In this document: piece after piece, positions 37,986 through 46,507 of the stretch
Layout of the letters: the number at the start of each line of letters is the position of its first letter
How positions within the stretch are numbered: the first letter of the stretch is position 1
Source: Acidobacteriota bacterium
GTDB taxonomy: Bacteria; Acidobacteriota; Terriglobia; Acidiferrales; UBA7541
Direction: 5' to 3'
Length of the DNA: 64,000 nt
NCBI GenBank assembly: GCA_003223215.1
Contig: QHYH01000094.1
Location: 1 to 64,000, forward strand
Position numbers and translations under genes: made by a program
The notes under the pieces: generated by a model
The model's database searches: none
Told to the model about the DNA's origin: nothing
Seen by the model: only the letters and a program-made list of their open reading frames with translations

Positions 37986-38192
37986 TTTGTCCTCCGTTGC
38001 TCTGTGGGCTCTACTCGAAAGCCCCTCTCCACCGCAGATGTCGTCTCCGGCCTTCGAGATTTCGACAGTTAGATGAATATCGAAGTATGTGGTTACAATT
38101 TCCTTGACTTTTTTTAGGCCCGAGCCATCTAATCCACTGGCGGCAGAGTCCGCAATTGGCTAGACTCCGGCCATACCTTGGATATCGCTCCA

Positions 38193-38486
38193 ATGAACCG
38201 CTCGCAAATCGAGAAAATCTCCAAAGCGCTGGCCGACGAAACGCGCCTCCGTATCTTCGAGTCTATCTCGCGCTGCGGGCACTTGACCTGCGGGGAACTG
38301 GTCACCATGCGCGGGGTCACGCCGGCCACGGTCTCGCACCACTTGAAAATCCTGAGCGAAGCAGGACTAATCTCCTGCCGGCGCAATGGGCAGTTCGTGT
38401 ACAGCGAAACGGTGCCGGGAACGGTGGAAAGGTTTACACGAACGCTAGCGAAAATGGCGCGAGGCAAAAAGTCGCAGCGGCGTTGA
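38193..38486 (+). CDS. ArsR-family winged-helix repressor
   Basis: 97 residues from ATG 38193; TTG 38178 would add five residues. The fold is typical: KALADETRLRIFESISRCGH, CGELVTMRGVTPATVSHHLKIL as recognition helix, then LISCRRNGQFVYSE wing. The metal-binding ELCV-box cysteines are absent (here CGELV), so it is more likely a non-metal sensor. It is divergent from the SDR gene with about 200 bases between them. Confidence 0.85.
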   Translation: MNRSQIEKISKALADETRLRIFESISRCGHLTCGELVTMRGVTPATVSHHLKILSEAGLISCRRNGQFVYSETVPGTVERFTRTLAKMARGKKSQRR

Positions 38487-38550: not shown

Positions 38551-40179
38551 TCAGTTCGTGGGATTTCTTGGAAATTTGAAATACGGCAGACGCACGCCCT
38601 GATCGGTAATCTGGTCGGCGCGAATGCTCGTGGGCGCCTCAAATCCGAATGTTCCGCCATTCGTGACGTAATCGTCTTCATCCACTCCGTCGCCGCTAAC
38701 ACCGAGCCCGCCGACAAGCGTGCCGTTGCGATACAGACCCGCGCTGCCCGGGAAGAAAACGATTCCGCTCTTGTTCGCATTTGTCGCGCCGGTTTGAGAC
38801 CCTTGTGTGCAAGGATTGGCGACGTCCATCGCATAAAGACCGAGGAACGGCCCGGCGCTCGTACCGTCAATTCCCGGAGGATAAAGCGGATGCGCGCCAA
38901 AGCCGATGGTGCGGTTTGTCACCGCCCTGCCCAACGGCACGCCGTTCAGCTCGGCGGCGGTTCGGGAATTGCTATTGAAGTACACCATGTTGCGCGCCTT
39001 GGTCACCGCAACATCGATACTAAAGACCGTGGAATCGGGCATGCGCCGCAACCCGATGATCGTTCCGTCCAGATCCGCGACAGCGACTACCATCTTAGTG
39101 CGCGATCCGATCGGCAGGCGGATCGCCGCGCGCGTAGTGTTCGCGGTTGCTTCCGCATTGTCCAGGATCTGCTTTACGTCCGCCGCGCTCAGTCCGCCGA
39201 GTGGCCCCGCTGCCGGGGCGATCAAGTCGCCTTCGGGCGGCTGCCCCTGGCTGTTTGTTGGCGGGATCAGAAAACTTCCCGTGCCAGCGACCGACCCCGG
39301 GGAAAATCCCGCCGGGAGCGAAGTCTGATTTACGAAAGGCAGCGCGACTCCGCTGATGAAAACCACACCGGGAGCGGCCGGTGTTGGCCCGAAACTGTCG
39401 CTCGGCCCGGTTCGCGCCGTCGTCGATCCGGTGAACGCGGCAAATTCCGCCACATTCGCATTGTTCACCGAAGTTACAACGCCGATCCCTCCGAGCACGA
39501 CATTGTTGTAAAAAATCGGGACGCCCCCGGGATTCACGGCGGTGGCGCTCGAGTCGTTCGTATCAGCCTTACCGGTTACCACTCCGGGACCGAATCCCCC
39601 GTTGAGCATAAGTGAAGGAGGAATCTTGCTTTGAAAATTTGGATCGTTTACCAGCGTGCAGCCACGATTCGTGTTTTCGATGCCATACAAATCCGCGGGC
39701 GGCTGATTCGCGACGCCGGGCGGAAAATGAATTCCGCTAATAAACCGCACCGTCCGTGACGAGAGCGGCGCTTGATCGTTGCTGAAAAATGCGCCGGTAC
39801 GCCCCAGGGCCACGGCAAGATCATTGGCATCCACCGGCTGCCCAAAATTCCCCGTACTCATTGCCGGGGCATTCGGCGTTCGAAACACCCCAAGCACAAA
39901 TCCCGCGCGGTCCACCACGGCCACGACCATATCCACACCCACAGAATTCACCGCCGCCTGCACGATGTTTTGCACATCGGACACCTGCAGCGGCTGAACC
40001 GCCGCGGGCGGAGGAGGGGAAACCGGCGCACTGGTCCCGGCGCCGCAGCCCCAAAGCAGAAACCCCAGAACACCAGCGACACCCAGGGCGAGAAAGACGC
40101 CCGCTACGAGCACTTTGTTTCGCGAGCGAAGCGCCTCGCCCGATGCCACCGGCTTGCGCAGTTTGTGAGTGAGTGCCAT
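38551..40179 (-). CDS. Two-domain haem-degrading (GlcG/HbpS-like) exported protein
   Basis: 542 residues. A hydrophobic N-terminal segment (VLVAGVFLALGVAGVLGFLLWGCGAG) ends in a lipobox-like Cys, followed by a proline-rich linker. Two diverged copies of the GlcG/HbpS domain follow: VQNIVQAAVNSVGVDMVVAVVDRAG with DVAVALGRTG, and VKQILDNAEATANTTRAAI with MVVAVADLDG and DVAVTKARNM. Members of this family bind haem or act in redox sensing at the cell surface. The gene is divergent from the barrel/multihaem cytochrome pair, a suggestive context for haem-related work outside the cell. Confidence 0.75.
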   Translation of the reverse strand: MALTHKLRKPVASGEALRSRNKVLVAGVFLALGVAGVLGFLLWGCGAGTSAPVSPPPPAAVQPLQVSDVQNIVQAAVNSVGVDMVVAVVDRAGFVLGVFRTPNAPAMSTGNFGQPVDANDLAVALGRTGAFFSNDQAPLSSRTVRFISGIHFPPGVANQPPADLYGIENTNRGCTLVNDPNFQSKIPPSLMLNGGFGPGVVTGKADTNDSSATAVNPGGVPIFYNNVVLGGIGVVTSVNNANVAEFAAFTGSTTARTGPSDSFGPTPAAPGVVFISGVALPFVNQTSLPAGFSPGSVAGTGSFLIPPTNSQGQPPEGDLIAPAAGPLGGLSAADVKQILDNAEATANTTRAAIRLPIGSRTKMVVAVADLDGTIIGLRRMPDSTVFSIDVAVTKARNMVYFNSNSRTAAELNGVPLGRAVTNRTIGFGAHPLYPPGIDGTSAGPFLGLYAMDVANPCTQGSQTGATNANKSGIVFFPGSAGLYRNGTLVGGLGVSGDGVDEDDYVTNGGTFGFEAPTSIRADQITDQGVRLPYFKFPRNPTN

Positions 40180-40387
40180 CGAAGGATTCCCTTTGTTGGT
40201 AGCACAGTCGTTCGCAGGCGCTCAACGGATTTGCCGGACTTGTGAGGCTTATCGGTGAACGGGCTGGAGCTTTCCGACTTGTTATTGACTCGCGCCATCC
40301 ATGCCGGAAAAGTGTTGCTCCTCGGTACTCGATATTGTTAGCTAGAACGCGATCTCTTGTTTTTTGCGGACACGTTCAGGCGAAGGA

Positions 40388-42628
40388 ATGATCAGCTCTG
40401 TTCTGAGACTATCGCGGCGCGCGGTCGGTGCGGCTTGCTGTTCTTGCTTCTTCTTTTCCTTCGGCGTGGCGGCGAGAACTCTTTTAAAGCAAGGGCCGCC
40501 GGCGCAGAGTTCGGCAAAAGAATCACGCGAACCGGGTCCACCGCAGCGCATTCCGCGCCAGCAAGCGCAGAACACAGCGGCACTCGACGGATTTGTTCGC
40601 GACGCCGGCTCGCTGAATAATCCGCTGCCCGTTCCCGGCACGGTACTGACCCTGCGGAATCTGGAATCCGGGAAGGTCTTTAACGCAACTTCTTCCGCGG
40701 AAGGAGTTTTCCGGCTGTTTCCCTTGCCGCGCGGAAAATACGAGTTGCGCGCGGAGGCACAGAACTACGCGCCTTTTGTCCTCGCGGACCTTGTGCTCCA
40801 GGCCAATGAAATCGTCACGCTGGAAATTTCTATGGTAAGTTCCGGCGTCGCCGGAGCAAATTCCCGTCTCCCGCGCCTTCCTGAACTTGGTCCCGCACTC
40901 TCCTCCGGAGCCACCGAGCCTTCGGGAAGATATCGTGAACTCTGGCACCGCCTCGATTCCGATCCCAACTACGTCGAAAACACCTCGCCAGAAATGCTTC
41001 CGCCCGTCGCAGACATTTACCATGCGGTTCCGAATCGCTGGGCCTTGCAGCAGCCCGATTATCGGCGCTATTCCGGGAAGGGCGAGTACGTCTACGTCAA
41101 ACCGCGCTGGTACGATCCATTCAACCGCAACCGCTTCAAGGGTGACGAACCGATCTGGCCGCAGCTTTTCGGCCAGCAGGTCTTTCTGAACCTAACGGGT
41201 TCGTCGGAGACTATCTTTGCTGGGCGCCGCGTGCCTTCGCCGAGTAACGTAAGCAGCGCCAGGCCCGGCAGTGCCGATTTCTTTGGCAAAGGCGAGCAAG
41301 AATTCTTCGATCAAACGCTGCGCTTCGCGTTCGATTTTTTTCATGGCGACGGGTCGTTCAAACCAGCGGACTGGCGCATTCGAATCACCCCCGAATTCAG
41401 CCTGAATGATTTGAACGTGCGGGAGCTCGGCATCGTAGGACCCGACGTGCGGAGCGGCACGAACCGCTTTGACAATCATCTCGGGCTTCAGGAGGCTTTC
41501 ATCGAAGCAAAGCTTCATGACCTCGGGCCGAATTACGATTTCGTTTCCGCGCGCGCCGGCATTCAGCAATTCAACGCGGATTTCCGAGGCTTTCTGTTTG
41601 TCGACGAGCAGCCTGCGTTGCGCGTCTTCGGCAATCTGCACAGCAACCGCATCGAGTACAACGTTGCGTACTTCCACTTTCTCGAGAAAAACACAAACAG
41701 CGGGCTGAATACGTTCGACCGCCGCCATCAACAGGTCGCACTGGGGAACGTTTATTTGCAGGATTTCTTCTTTCCGGGCTACACGGTGGAATTCATTGCC
41801 GCATGGAACAAAGATGATCCCAGTTTGCATTACGACGACAACGGGTTCCTGGTGCGTCCCGCCCCGGTCGGAAATGTGATCGATCAAAACCCTGGGACTG
41901 GCCCGCTTTTGCACGGCGTGCGCGTAGGATATTTTGGCTGGCTCGCTAGCGGCCACATCCATCGGATCAATCTTACCCATGCTTTCTATCAGGCACTTGG
42001 CGAGGACACATTTAATCCGATTGCGGGAAGACCAGTGACGATCAACGCCCAGATGGCGGCGGTAGAAATCTCTTACGACAAAGACTGGATGCGGTATCGC
42101 GTTTCCGCTTTTTACACATCGGGCGACGCAAACCCGCGAGACGGGCGCGCGCGCGGCTTCGATTCCATCGTGGACCTGCCGAATTTTGCGGGAGGACTGT
42201 TCAGTTTCTGGAACCGCGAAGGAATTCGCCTGCTTGGCTCGGGCGTTTTGCTCACCACTCCGGGCAGCCTGATTCCCTCGCTGCGCTCAAGCAAAGAGGA
42301 AGGGCAGGCCAATTTTGTGAATCCAGGACTTTTTCTGACAAGCGCGGGCGCGGACTTCGATATCAGCCCAAAATGGAAAGGCTTTGCGAATTTCAACTAC
42401 TTGCGTTTCGAACGCACCGAGCCGCTGGAGTTTCTGCTATTTCAATCGCCCATTCATCACGCCATCGGCGAAGACGCTGCCATCGGTGTGGAATACCGTC
42501 CGCCGCTCTCGGAAAACATTGTGTTCACCGCCGGCGCTTCGGCGCTGCAGCCTGCGCAGGGTTTCAAAGACATCTACACGGGCCGCACGCAGTTCTCGCT
42601 TTTCGGCTCGGCGAAGTTTACTTTCTGA
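40388..42628 (+). CDS. Outer-membrane beta-barrel protein with carboxypeptidase-regulatory domain
   Basis: 746 residues from ATG 40388 (GAAGGA lies just upstream, close); TTG 40364 is an alternative. A signal segment is followed by a carboxypeptidase-regulatory-like domain at about 60-130 (LDGFVRDAGSL, GVFRLFPLPRGKYELRAEAQ). The rest is beta-barrel-like, with alternating aromatic and polar strands (FDNHLGLQEAFIEAKLHDLG, NRIEYNVAYFHFLEK, AVEISYDKDWMRYRVSAFY), and ends in Phe (LFGSAKFTF), a typical outer-membrane insertion signal. There is no TonB plug. The stop codon is 12 bases before the ten-haem cytochrome gene, so the two are surely one operon; a porin holding a cytochrome is the natural reading. 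Confidence 0.75.
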   Translation: MISSVLRLSRRAVGAACCSCFFFSFGVAARTLLKQGPPAQSSAKESREPGPPQRIPRQQAQNTAALDGFVRDAGSLNNPLPVPGTVLTLRNLESGKVFNATSSAEGVFRLFPLPRGKYELRAEAQNYAPFVLADLVLQANEIVTLEISMVSSGVAGANSRLPRLPELGPALSSGATEPSGRYRELWHRLDSDPNYVENTSPEMLPPVADIYHAVPNRWALQQPDYRRYSGKGEYVYVKPRWYDPFNRNRFKGDEPIWPQLFGQQVFLNLTGSSETIFAGRRVPSPSNVSSARPGSADFFGKGEQEFFDQTLRFAFDFFHGDGSFKPADWRIRITPEFSLNDLNVRELGIVGPDVRSGTNRFDNHLGLQEAFIEAKLHDLGPNYDFVSARAGIQQFNADFRGFLFVDEQPALRVFGNLHSNRIEYNVAYFHFLEKNTNSGLNTFDRRHQQVALGNVYLQDFFFPGYTVEFIAAWNKDDPSLHYDDNGFLVRPAPVGNVIDQNPGTGPLLHGVRVGYFGWLASGHIHRINLTHAFYQALGEDTFNPIAGRPVTINAQMAAVEISYDKDWMRYRVSAFYTSGDANPRDGRARGFDSIVDLPNFAGGLFSFWNREGIRLLGSGVLLTTPGSLIPSLRSSKEEGQANFVNPGLFLTSAGADFDISPKWKGFANFNYLRFERTEPLEFLLFQSPIHHAIGEDAAIGVEYRPPLSENIVFTAGASALQPAQGFKDIYTGRTQFSLFGSAKFTF

Positions 42629-42640
42629 GGCGACCAGGCG

Positions 42641-45600
42641 ATGCTGCTTTTCGACAGATGCAACTCCTCTTCTGGGCGAACGCTCTCTGTGCTCTCCGTC
42701 TCTGCGTTGTCTTTTCTTTTTGCTCTTTATGCGGCGCCCGCAAAAAATGCCGGGCTGAAGCCCGCAGCGACGGCCACTGTAAGACCGTCTCAGGAAGAAC
42801 CGGACAAAAAATCAGCGGGATGTGTTTCCTGCCACACACGGACGGACGAGCCGACCATGCATCCGACGAAAACCGTCCATCTTGGCTGCACCGACTGCCA
42901 CGGTGGAAATTCTTCGATCGCCATTCGACCGGGAACCGCACCGAATTCCGCGGAATACACTGCGGCAAAAGAAAAAGCCCACGTGCAGCCGCGCAATGCG
43001 GCTGTCAAAGATCGCGCCAGCCTTCCCGAACACGGTTACACGTTGTGGCTGAAGGAGTCCTCCGAATACGTCAAATTCGTCAATCCGGGAGATTTGCGTG
43101 TTGCGCCGGAGGCTTGCGGGCCAGCCGGCTGCCACGCGAAGGAAGTGCGCGCCGTTTCCACCAGCATGATGACGCACGTCGGCCTGCTGTGGGGCGCCGC
43201 GCTCTACAACAACGGCGGCTTCCCTTCCAAGAATGCGCATTTTGGTGAAAGTTACAGCCATGAGGGCTTGCCGCAATCGATCAAAACCTTTCCGAAGCCC
43301 ACGCCCGAAGAAATGCGTGCCAAGGGCATCTTGCCCGAGCTGGATCCGTTGTATCGTTGGGAGATTTCGCAGCCCGGCAACGTGCTGCGGGTCTTCGAAC
43401 GCGGCGGCCACCGAAAAGCGGAGATGGGCAATCCCAACCGCCAGGAGGACCCCGGCAAGCCGGACGACAAGCTCAGCGACCGTGGCTTCGGCACGGGGCT
43501 CCGCACCGATCCCGTTTTCCTTGGTTTGCAAAAAACGCGCTTGGTCGATCCGGTGCTCTCTTTTCCCGGCACCAACGATCACCCCGGCGATTACCGCGGC
43601 AGCGGCTGCACGGCTTGTCATGTGATTTACGCCAACGACCGCGATCCTTCTCATTCCGGCGCCTACGCGGTGTTCGGTCATTCCGGTTTCAGTGCGTCCT
43701 CGGATCCGACGATTCCCAAAGACGAGCCGGGACATCCCATCAAGCATGCGTTGACGCGATCGATTCCCTCGAGCGCATGCATGATCTGCCACATCCATCC
43801 GGGCGCGAACATGATGACGACCTATTTCGGTCTCACGTGGTGGGACAACGAAATCGACGGCGACCGGATGTACCCGAAAGAACAGCGCAACCCCACGGAA
43901 GAGGAGCGTTACCAATCCTTTTTGCGCAACCCGGAAGGCACGGCGGTGCGCGGATTTTGGAACGATGAAAAATTTCTCGAACGGACCGGCACGGCGGAAT
44001 TCAACAAGCAATTGAAAACCACGCAGTTCGCCGATTTTCACGGGCACGGTTGGATCTTTCGCTCGGTCTTTAAGCACGACCGCAAAGGCATCTGGCTTGA
44101 TAAAGACGGCAAGCAGATCGCGTTCGACGACCCCGACCGTTTTTCAAAAGCTGTCCACCTTGCCGACATCCATCTGGAAAAAGGGATGCAGTGCAATGAT
44201 TGCCACTTCGAGCAGGACAATCACGGCAACGGAAAAATTTACGGCGAACCTCGCGCCGCCGTCGAGATCGATTGCATCGATTGCCACGGCACGATTCAAA
44301 GAAAGGCCACGCTTGTAACTTCAGGACCAGCGGCGCCGGAAGCGGTTACGCCTGGAGGCGAGCGCGGCCGCCATCTCGACAAGCTGCGCACGCCGTGGGG
44401 CTTGCGGCGATTCGAATGGCGCGGCGACCGATTGATGCAGCGCTCGATGTCGGTAGAAAACCAAGAGTGGGAAATCGTCCAGACGGTGGACACGGTCACG
44501 CCCGGAAATCCTCACTTCAGTGAGAAATCTCTGCGGGCCAAGCTGATGGGTAAAGACGGAACCGTTGCGTCGCAAACGCCCGCGGACGATCGAACGCTCG
44601 CTCACGCTAACGACAAAATGACCTGCTACTCCTGCCACACGTCGTGGGTACCAACTTGCTTTGGCTGTCATCTGCAAATGACCGCGAATGCTCGGCGTCC
44701 GATGCTGCACAACGAAGGCCTGCTCACGAGAAATTACACGAGCTACAACTTCCAGGTTCTGCGCGATGACATTTACATGCTCGGAATCGATGGCACGGTG
44801 ACCGGGCATCGCGTCGCGCCCGCGCGCTCCTCTTGCGCGATTCTCGTCAGTTCGCAAAACGCAAATCGCGAGTGGCTCTACTACACCCAGCAGACCATCT
44901 CCGCGCCGGGGTTTTCCGGGCAGGCGTTTTCCACTTTTGTCCCGCACACGGTGAGAGCCAGCGAAACAAAGGTGTGCAGCGATTGCCACGTTTCCGCCCA
45001 AAACGATAACAACGCCTGGATGGCACAGCTTCTGCTGCAAGGCACGAACTTCATGAACTTTATGGGGCGCTATATTTACGTGGCAACCGGCAACAAAGGA
45101 TTCGAAGCGATCGCCGTTGCCGAGCACGACGAACCGGAAGCGATTTACGGAAGCGACCTTCAGCGCATCGCGTATCCGGATGATTTCAGGAAGTTCGTCG
45201 GGCGAGGCCGCGAGCTGCAGGCCGCGGCAGAGCACTCCGGTAAGGTCCTGGACATTCAAGCACGCGGGGAATATGCCTACGCGGCTACCGGCCCAGGCGG
45301 TCTCCGCGTCTACGACATCGCCAACATCGACAACAAAGGTTTCTCCGAAAAAATCATCACCGCGCCGGTTTCTTCGCTTGGTCAGCGCTTCTTCGTTGCA
45401 ACGAAGAACGCCGCGGCGGTTGCGTCACCTACCACGCTCGGCGTTGACCCGCTGCGCCGGCAACTGCCGGAAAACGAAGAGCAGCCGATTCATCTGGCTT
45501 ACGGTTTTCTCTACGCCGCTGATAAAGAAGAAGGCTTGATCGTCGTCGGCGATCCAAACTTGAAATCGGACATCGCCGGCGTAAGCACGCTGCTCGACGG

Positions 45601-46507
45601 CAACCCGTCGAACAATTTTCTGAAGCGCGCGCTCACTTTCAATCCCGGTGGCATTCTGACCGGCGCGCGCCGCATTACCATTGCCGGCACATACGCATAC
45701 GTTTTGACCGACAAAGCTCTGGTTGTGGTGGATCTCGACGATCCGCTCACCCCGCAGGTAACCGCGACGATCGGTGCGCCTGCGCTGAACGAACCCCGCG
45801 GCATCGCCGTACAATTCCGCTACGCGTTCATCGTGGACCGCGACGGCATGAAAGTTTTGGACGTCACCGATCTCTCGCAACCAAAGCCCGTCTCCAATGC
45901 GCTTGTCCCGCTCGAAGACGCGCGCAACGTTTATGTCGCGCGCACCTACGCCTATGTTTCCTCGGGCAAACAAGGTTTAGCGATCGTCGACGTGGAGAAA
46001 CCGGACGCTCCCAAGCTCGACCAAGTGTTTAATGCTGGAGGCCAGCTCAACGACGTGAACGACGTGAAAATTGGAATGGTCGCGGCGAGCGTGTTTGCTT
46101 TTGTCGCTGACGGCAAAAATGGCCTGCGCGTCCTCGAAATCATTTCCCCCTGGGACGACCCCGCGCATTTCTCCGGCTTCAGCCCGCGCCCAACGCCAAA
46201 ACTGATCGCAACGGCGCGTACGCGAGGCCCTGCGCTGGCTATCTCCAAAGGAATCGACCGCGACCGCGCCGTGGATGAATCCGGCAATCAGCTCGCCGTT
46301 TTTGGCCGCCGTGGCGCGCGCCCGCTCAATCGAACTGAGGCCCGGGCGGTTTACCTGCGCAACGGTCAGCTCTACACCGTAACCGACGAACCCGCCGAGC
46401 ACACCCAGGTCGGGCGGCCTGCCTCGGCTTCGCACACCTGGCTCAGAGATCTGAAGTCTTGGCTGTTTACCCCTCAGACGGTCAGAACTCGCCCGGCCGG
46501 ACGCTAA
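42641..46507 (+). CDS. Ten-haem c-type cytochrome fused to an LVIVD beta-propeller
   Basis: 1288 residues, exported (signal [20 protein letters not shown]). Nine CxxCH haem sites start at Cys61, 83, 323, 380, 518, 545, 662, 673 and 779. A tenth, CGPAGCH at Cys159, has four residues between the cysteines. From about 800 to 1250 LVIVD-type repeats follow ([73 protein letters not shown]), forming a propeller. Haem-rich head plus propeller next to an outer-membrane barrel resembles porin-cytochrome conduits for extracellular electron transfer, but the architecture differs from the MtrCAB and Pcc types known to me. The role (electron output, or oxidation of an outside donor) is inferred. Confidence 0.88.

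Follow-up and report, generated by a model that had tools for sequence, protein, structure and literature searches.

Within a 64,000-nucleotide stretch of contig QHYH01000094.1 from a soil Acidobacteriota bacterium (assembly GCA_003223215.1; the window hereafter), two adjacent genes encode an outer-membrane beta-barrel protein (BAR) and an exported ten-haem cytochrome with a C-terminal LVIVD propeller (CYT). The two genes are inherited as a unit, and in part of the related loci they stand beside a recurring set of genes for flavin, iron-sulfur, membrane and cytochrome proteins. There is about an even chance that the pair forms the outer-membrane end of an electron-export chain that is fed by NAD(P)H and bypasses the quinone pool. 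The features of the pair are:

40388..42628, forward strand: BAR, outer-membrane beta-barrel protein with an N-terminal CarboxypepD_reg domain (ORF, Pfam, predicted structure)
40586..40834, forward strand: CarboxypepD_reg domain of BAR, variable (Pfam)
41180..42625, forward strand: the 18 predicted beta-strands of BAR, with an AlgE/Occ-like fold (AlphaFold2 and fold search)
42641..46507, forward strand: CYT, exported ten-haem cytochrome with a C-terminal LVIVD propeller (ORF, Pfam, motifs, alignment, model)
42821..44989, forward strand: the ten haem sites of CYT, in ExtM-like and then ExtN-like stretches (motif scan, NCBIfam)
45065..46261, forward strand: LVIVD/YVTN-type beta-propeller of CYT (PF08309 and fold search)

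Relatives were compared as 88 non-duplicate loci, the window included, which are not independent of each other, many coming from one genus; they were gathered with six peptides of the window CYT, so that far relatives are under-sampled. The check set beforehand, whether the pair is conserved together, found BAR immediately ahead of CYT in 72 of the 74 testable loci, that is, loci with an adequate CYT and either enough upstream DNA or a barrel; the count leaves out six loci in which too little DNA precedes CYT and eight in which CYT is a fragment. Of the 89 genomes in the window's family, 45 have a match to CYT (E up to 1e-3), in some cases a fragment, as have 42 of 396 genomes sampled from the phylum at E < 1e-100. 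CYT is also present in 62 loci of named genomes, including some labelled Verrucomicrobia, Planctomycetota, Nitrospirae, Pirellulales and Deltaproteobacteria; these are bin labels and some are doubtful, as with a "Betaproteobacteria" CYT that is 78% identical. The nearest full-length named relatives, at about 82% identity, belong to Acidobacteria metagenome bins, several of which are labelled gp2.

CYT extends from an ATG at 42641 to a TAA at 46505-46507 (1288 residues) and starts after a gap of exactly 12 bases behind BAR, which opens with an ATG at 40388, preceded in frame by a TTG at 40364, and closes with a TGA at 42626-42628. The preliminary description of the window had read this region as a barrel gene with a carboxypeptidase-regulatory domain followed by an exported ten-haem/LVIVD gene, an arrangement that is borne out by the open reading frames, motifs, Pfam matches and AlphaFold2 models. 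The haem sites start at 42821, 42887, 43115, 43607, 43778, 44192, 44273, 44624, 44657 and 44975. Nine of them are CxxCH motifs, and the third (43115) is a CX4CH motif, CGPAGCH, at residue 159. The corresponding motif in relatives is CxxCH (L036, L038, L040, L041, L047 and others), CX3CH (L045) or CX4CH, and the site is invariant in an alignment of the window CYT with 44 relatives (45 sequences, A1), so that the CX4CH motif is very likely a real haem site; the possibility that it is a false one was rejected on account of the CxxCH and CX3CH forms. All ten sites are invariant in A1, which also led to the rejection of a haem count arising by chance. Eleven further histidines are invariant in the same alignment, and judged by their number they would be enough for bis-His ligation of all ten haems. 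The window CYT contains no CxxCK motif, and every cysteine pair in it falls in the ten haem motifs. A single match to CYT is found in the window's genome (8.8 Mb, 279 contigs).

The haem part of CYT resembles two cytochromes of the Geobacter ext system. It matches ExtM (NF040943) with 66.9 bits, the best member reaching 108.7 against a cut-off of 800, and ExtN (NF040967) with 37.9 bits over model positions 217-341 of 415, against a cut-off of 200. ExtM is matched by all 13 members scanned and ExtN by 10 of the 13, in short stretches and far below the cut-offs. A profile of CYT additionally matches octahaem nitrite reductase, with a whole-sequence E of 1.5e-5 and collinear stretches at haems 1-2 and 6-7, which are weak when taken singly (E 0.034 and 0.17). 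The propeller is matched by LVIVD (PF08309) in four stretches with 72.2 bits (gathering cut-off 20.2). In the AlphaFold2 model of the whole protein (mean pLDDT 73.3, pTM 0.78) it covers about residues 809-1207 (model residues about 758-1156) and superposes on an archaeal surface-layer YVTN propeller (1l0q_A; Z 29.5, rmsd 2.2, 274 aligned); the fold-search matches listed for whole CYT are filled by propellers.

The N-terminus of BAR matches CarboxypepD_reg with 45.1 bits (cut-off 32.3), a domain that is found in 23 of 45 BAR members. In two members a domain with four CxxCH motifs takes its place (L094:12294-14510, reverse strand; L097:5333-7663, forward strand), and these fused proteins favour a role of the barrel in electron export. 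The AlphaFold2 model of BAR (mean pLDDT 80.6, pTM 0.69) shows 18 strands after the N-terminal part and superposes on AlgE (3rbh_D; Z 28.2, rmsd 2.7, 359 residues aligned), and Occ channels superpose as well. The likeness to AlgE is one of fold, Alginate_exp being matched by 2 of the 45 members (best E 2.6e-5). Searches of solved structures gave no match with the BAR sequence and four weak, unrelated ones with the BAR profile. No MtrB-type family is present among the matches at E 0.01 of the 45 members in NCBIfam and Pfam, and MtrB is not among the 50 fold matches listed, which does not exclude kinship with it. Since BAR is predicted to have 18 strands of the AlgE/Occ type, an MtrA-like rod inside it is unlikely. 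Some 60 residues that precede the first strand (model residues 205-264, nucleotides 41000-41179) are conserved, with a mean majority fraction of 0.49, compared with 0.05 to 0.22 in the remaining N-terminus, and include the invariant residues W218, P244, K251, D253 and P255; they may serve for docking or occupy the lumen. Identification of BAR as a TonB-dependent transporter was considered and rejected: the barrel part is present in a single copy in the window's genome, the other 15 genome matches cover the N-terminal part only, and plug and TonB families are absent from the family matches of BAR.

Frame clustering, with names from Pfam and NCBIfam, reveals a set of neighbours that recurs around the pair and could supply it with electrons. 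The set comprises a NuoE-NuoF fusion; CNB, a NuoG/HoxU-like iron-sulfur protein with cNMP-binding and 4Fe-4S domains; MEM, a membrane protein of about 300 residues; DEC, a ten-haem cytochrome with a hydrophobic anchor; and C554, a c554-like cytochrome. The NAD(P)H module depends on the lineage (NuoEF or FAD) and the rest of the set is constant; in L133 an FAD oxidoreductase, the cNMP-binding and the 4Fe-4S domains are joined in one frame. Six loci (L098, L099, L100, L133, L155 and L159) share the co-directional order CNB, MEM, DEC, HBP (an HbpS-like protein described below), BAR, CYT and C554, headed by an FAD domain in the last four of them; in L098, L099 and L100 the stretch analysed ends within the CNB gene. 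In L080-L083, L120, L134, L138 and others a convergent cassette adjoins CYT, and the DEC frame ends 3 bases (L083) and 10 bases (L081) from the CYT frame. No DEC was seen in the 20-kb stretches of L094 and L097, the two loci whose barrel carries the fused four-CxxCH domain. The DEC frames of L133, L098 and L159 bear FHA domains. Those of L098 (15739-18252, reverse strand) and L159 (3587-6277, forward strand) have two FHA stretches each, which suggests phospho-regulation of an electron-transfer protein.

In the window's genome DEC, MEM, CNB, NuoEF and C554 lie together on contig C49. Among the 61 loci that span at least 15 kb, 23 show two or more cassette genes; in the majority, then, the cassette lies at a greater distance or in another place. 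The preliminary description had noted that no inner-membrane quinol dehydrogenase is encoded nearby. A scan for multiple CxxCH motifs agrees with it to the extent that no other frame of the window contains two or more of them, which leaves no haem-c partner there; a candidate cassette is nevertheless present elsewhere in the genome and beside the pair in relatives. As to the input, the cassette points to NAD(P)H and not to quinol.

The link between cassette and pair is also seen in their joint occurrence across genomes. In the phylum sample, with MEM scored at E up to 1e-3, MEM is present in 41 of the 42 genomes that have a strong CYT and in 32 of the 354 that lack one (Fisher 1.7e-34; for this and the following test the presence sets were compiled by eye and relatedness is ignored). 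At E up to 2e-20 MEM occurs in 14 genomes, 13 of which have CYT, the exception (G375) being 75% complete. The 89 genomes of the family, scored at more than 300 bits for CYT and more than 100 bits for MEM, divide into 40 with both, 4 with CYT only, 3 with MEM only and 42 with neither (4.2e-17), and its 50 high-quality genomes into 24, 4, 0 and 22 in the same order. The CYT-only family genomes carry CYT fragments (G007, G034) or a divergent CYT of 43% identity (G041, G042). Within one genus the corresponding numbers are 21, 2, 0 and 13. In G184, G211 and G253, which carry CYT, a weak match to MEM lies within a longer frame.

Some loci have retained only parts of the system. Two loci with CYT fragments, L148 and L157, still have BAR; in L160 and L162 only a C-terminal fragment of CYT is left, with HBP still upstream and no barrel despite upstream room, and L162 retains DEC and CNB. 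The fragments in G007 and G034 are comparable, and these genomes have no strong MEM. The system thus seems to decay stepwise.

MEM is the component by which electrons would cross the inner membrane. In a 20-member alignment H83 and H97 are invariant and H306 and H320 are conserved in at least 90%; the two histidines of each pair are 14 residues apart, and the pairs lie within or at the edge of hydrophobic stretches. Two histidine pairs in two helices, with a spacing of about 13-14 residues, are how ferric reductases and NOX enzymes hold two stacked haems b. Matches to Ferric_reduct (PF01794) are present at E up to 1 in 7 of the 20 members (best 1.5e-4), the L100 frame reaching 20.1 bits, below the gathering cut-off of 28; this support is weak and split, as many members matching cytochrome b561 (PF01292) and DUF4405. 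On the conserved histidines and the neighbouring flavin and iron-sulfur proteins, MEM is a putative two-haem-b carrier of the ferric-reductase/NOX type.

The path that we infer would begin with NAD(P)H and the flavin module, which is NuoEF-like here and of the FAD type in other lineages, and would continue to the iron-sulfur centres of CNB, a protein that also has cNMP-binding domains. From CNB the electrons would pass through the two haems b of MEM across the inner membrane to the membrane-anchored DEC, from there to CYT, and finally through or at BAR to an acceptor on the outer side. CYT would most likely be periplasmic and docked where the 18-strand BAR faces the periplasm, the propeller serving for docking or as a scaffold, and HBP would be accessory. 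The flow is taken to be outward on the strength of the NAD(P)H modules and of the direction in which NOX-type carriers usually work. More tentative, and a little short of an even chance, is the fuller proposal of a cross-phylum NAD(P)H-fed export system, gated through cNMP-binding and, in some lineages, FHA domains, in which a CYT combining ExtM/ExtN-type haem stretches with a propeller docks on a narrow 18-strand barrel.

For the place of CYT, the preliminary description had suggested that the propeller could sit outside the cell, which is now doubtful. The window CYT has a signal-like N-terminus and no lipobox; a loose lipobox pattern fits 5 of 93 CYT frames (fragments included), about two of them plausibly by eye. 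Its haem part is ExtM/ExtN-like, and in each of the 44 relatives the identity of CYT to the window protein (52-85%) exceeds that of BAR (38-83%). Geobacter conduits are described as having variable surface parts and conserved periplasmic ones (PMC6148476). Part of the identity gap is due to the variable N-terminus of BAR; measured as majority-residue fraction, conservation of the barrel part alone (0.64) comes close to that of CYT (0.58 to 0.77, depending on the region). ExtM, moreover, is not simply periplasmic, having been detected in both membranes as well as in the periplasm (PMC5877670). A periplasmic CYT docked to BAR is proposed with moderate confidence. As for the original idea of an electron conduit, what stands is a single conserved unit beside electron-transfer proteins; its surface propeller and an MtrA-like rod are weakened.

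Several observations weigh against electron export through the pair. The AlgE/Occ fold is that of small-solute channels, and judging from the model BAR may pass a substrate and not electrons; the contact between CYT and BAR is one that we infer; and in cable bacteria ExtN has been counted among the cytochromes that may be catalytic, with a five-coordinate haem (PMC11976967). The searched DNA upstream of CYT, 10 kb in L141 and 8 kb in L151, yielded no BAR; the L151 contig breaks off within CYT. None of the MEM frames scanned reaches a Pfam cut-off, the MEM profile matched no solved ferric-reductase/NOX or other haem-b chain, and a strong MEM is missing in 4 of the 28 CYT-bearing high-quality family genomes. 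Pair and cassette lie on different contigs in the window's genome, and 38 of the 61 loci of at least 15 kb have fewer than two cassette genes nearby. Some of this would suit a periplasmic terminal reductase, in which BAR admits a small acceptor and CYT reduces it with electrons of the cassette, none of them crossing the outer membrane. This is possible, though less probable than export. Apart from the fold of the barrel and the potentially catalytic ExtN, it would account for a CYT without lipid anchor, for the faint collinear match to octahaem nitrite reductase and for CYT being more alike than BAR across the 44 relatives, and it would be in line with the likeness to ExtM and ExtN, the ext cluster having been linked to selenite and tellurite reduction through ExtI (PMC5877670). 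It is opposed by the lack of CxxCK in the window CYT, by invariant histidines that would suffice for all ten haems, and by the two loci with a fused haem domain, which tie the barrel itself to electron transfer.

The remaining two explanations are both improbable. If the chain ran inward, electrons of an outside donor would enter by BAR and CYT and reduce NAD+, for which NuoEF/HoxU-like modules would be suited, as they are reversible in other systems. The usual flow through the two b haems of NOX/FRE-type proteins is outward, down the membrane potential; transfer to NAD+ would have to oppose that potential, and no energy coupling is recognised in the cassette; in part of the loci NuoEF is furthermore replaced by FAD disulfide-reductase-like modules. 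Alternatively, the pair could be a separate device, for example for haem or iron handling together with HBP, its co-occurrence with the cassette reflecting shared habitat or ancestry. HBP adjoins the pair in 46 of the 53 loci whose flanks are long enough to tell, which fits this explanation, as do the separation of pair and cassette in the window's genome, the many loci with fewer than two cassette genes and the disregard of relatedness in the co-occurrence tests. It is harder to reconcile with the co-directional order in six loci and the direct adjacency in others, in records labelled as different phyla, or with a co-occurrence that persists within one family and even within the single genus counted above.

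Compared with known systems, electron export by BAR and CYT would use parts of known kinds. In the extHIJKLMNOPQS cluster of Geobacter ExtM has 12 haems and ExtN 10, whereas CYT joins an ExtM-like and then an ExtN-like stretch in one polypeptide; a porin-like barrel is common to both systems (ExtI there, BAR here). The inner part of ext is a Rieske/cytochrome b (bc-type) complex (PMC5877670, PMC2825233), in place of which an NAD(P)H/haem-b cassette is the candidate here. The excerpts of the same two papers describe a putative selenoprotein cytochrome in ext and do not mention a propeller, which CYT has. MtrCAB is similar in that a barrel gene stands beside a multihaem gene and a separate ten-haem cytochrome belongs to the wider set. 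It differs in that MtrB is a predicted 28-strand porin (PMC7096707), compared with 18 predicted strands in BAR, and in that the large cytochrome of the mtr type is a lipoprotein (PMC6148476), whereas the window CYT has no lipobox. Barrels of about 26-28 strands are typical of MtrCAB- and DmsEF-type conduits, and the present chain would also be set apart from the MtrCAB type by an inner input that is not a quinol dehydrogenase. Porin-multihaem cytochrome clusters of Verrucomicrobia (He et al. 2017) also have a porin-like gene beside multihaem genes and were proposed to export electrons to humics (PMC5615132); the adjacent cytochromes are reported to have eight conserved haem sites and the porins 20 or more transmembrane motifs (PMC5615132), and the clusters are set apart here by that description only. 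With ferric-reductase/NOX carriers, among them MsrQ, MEM shares the two histidine pairs 14 residues apart and an NAD(P)H flavin module of the cytoplasmic type, but it would instead pass its electrons to a ten-haem cytochrome and an outer-membrane module.

Earlier reports on related ground include OetABI (PMC10553843), decahaem homologues in Solibacter and Terriglobus (PMC3669403), and, in Holophaga, a first porin-cytochrome complex of the Acidobacteria, whose porins are MtrB-like and ExtB/E-like (PMC7399161). PMC11475568 gave no match to Acidobacteria, propeller or related words. Among the matches listed from the open full-text literature, preprints not included, no title or abstract contains the pair of an LVIVD cytochrome and a barrel, with or without the cassette. 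The combination appears to be a new variant.

Well-studied extracellular electron-transfer chains start at the inner-membrane quinol (CymA, CbcL, ImcH). A chain fed by NAD(P)H that traverses the membrane through a NOX-like carrier would spend membrane potential and not save it, and its role would therefore be redox balancing, the reduction of iron or oxyanions, or contact with humics, rather than ordinary respiration. The named members seen in the window's family are metagenome bins, and electron-transfer abilities in the family are mostly guessed. The gene set provides a defined, testable pathway and a handle for genome searches.

The third conserved member of the locus is divergent from the pair:

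38551..40179, reverse strand: HBP, exported protein with HbpS-like repeats (PF03928)

HBP matches PF03928 in three stretches with 64.7 bits, and its profile (A3) matches solved chains of EfgA/glycolate-utilization proteins and of extracellular haem-binding proteins (best E 3.5e-17). Of the 46 loci where HBP adjoins the pair, 33 have it in divergent orientation, 8 on the same strand and upstream, and 5 downstream. Its N-terminus in the window ends in LLWGC and appears lipoprotein-like by eye, yet falls outside the loose lipobox pattern, which fits 26 of 61 HBP frames. Adjoining HBP, at 38178-38486 on the forward strand of the window, is the gene of an ArsR-family regulator, a frame that recurs in 10 loci.

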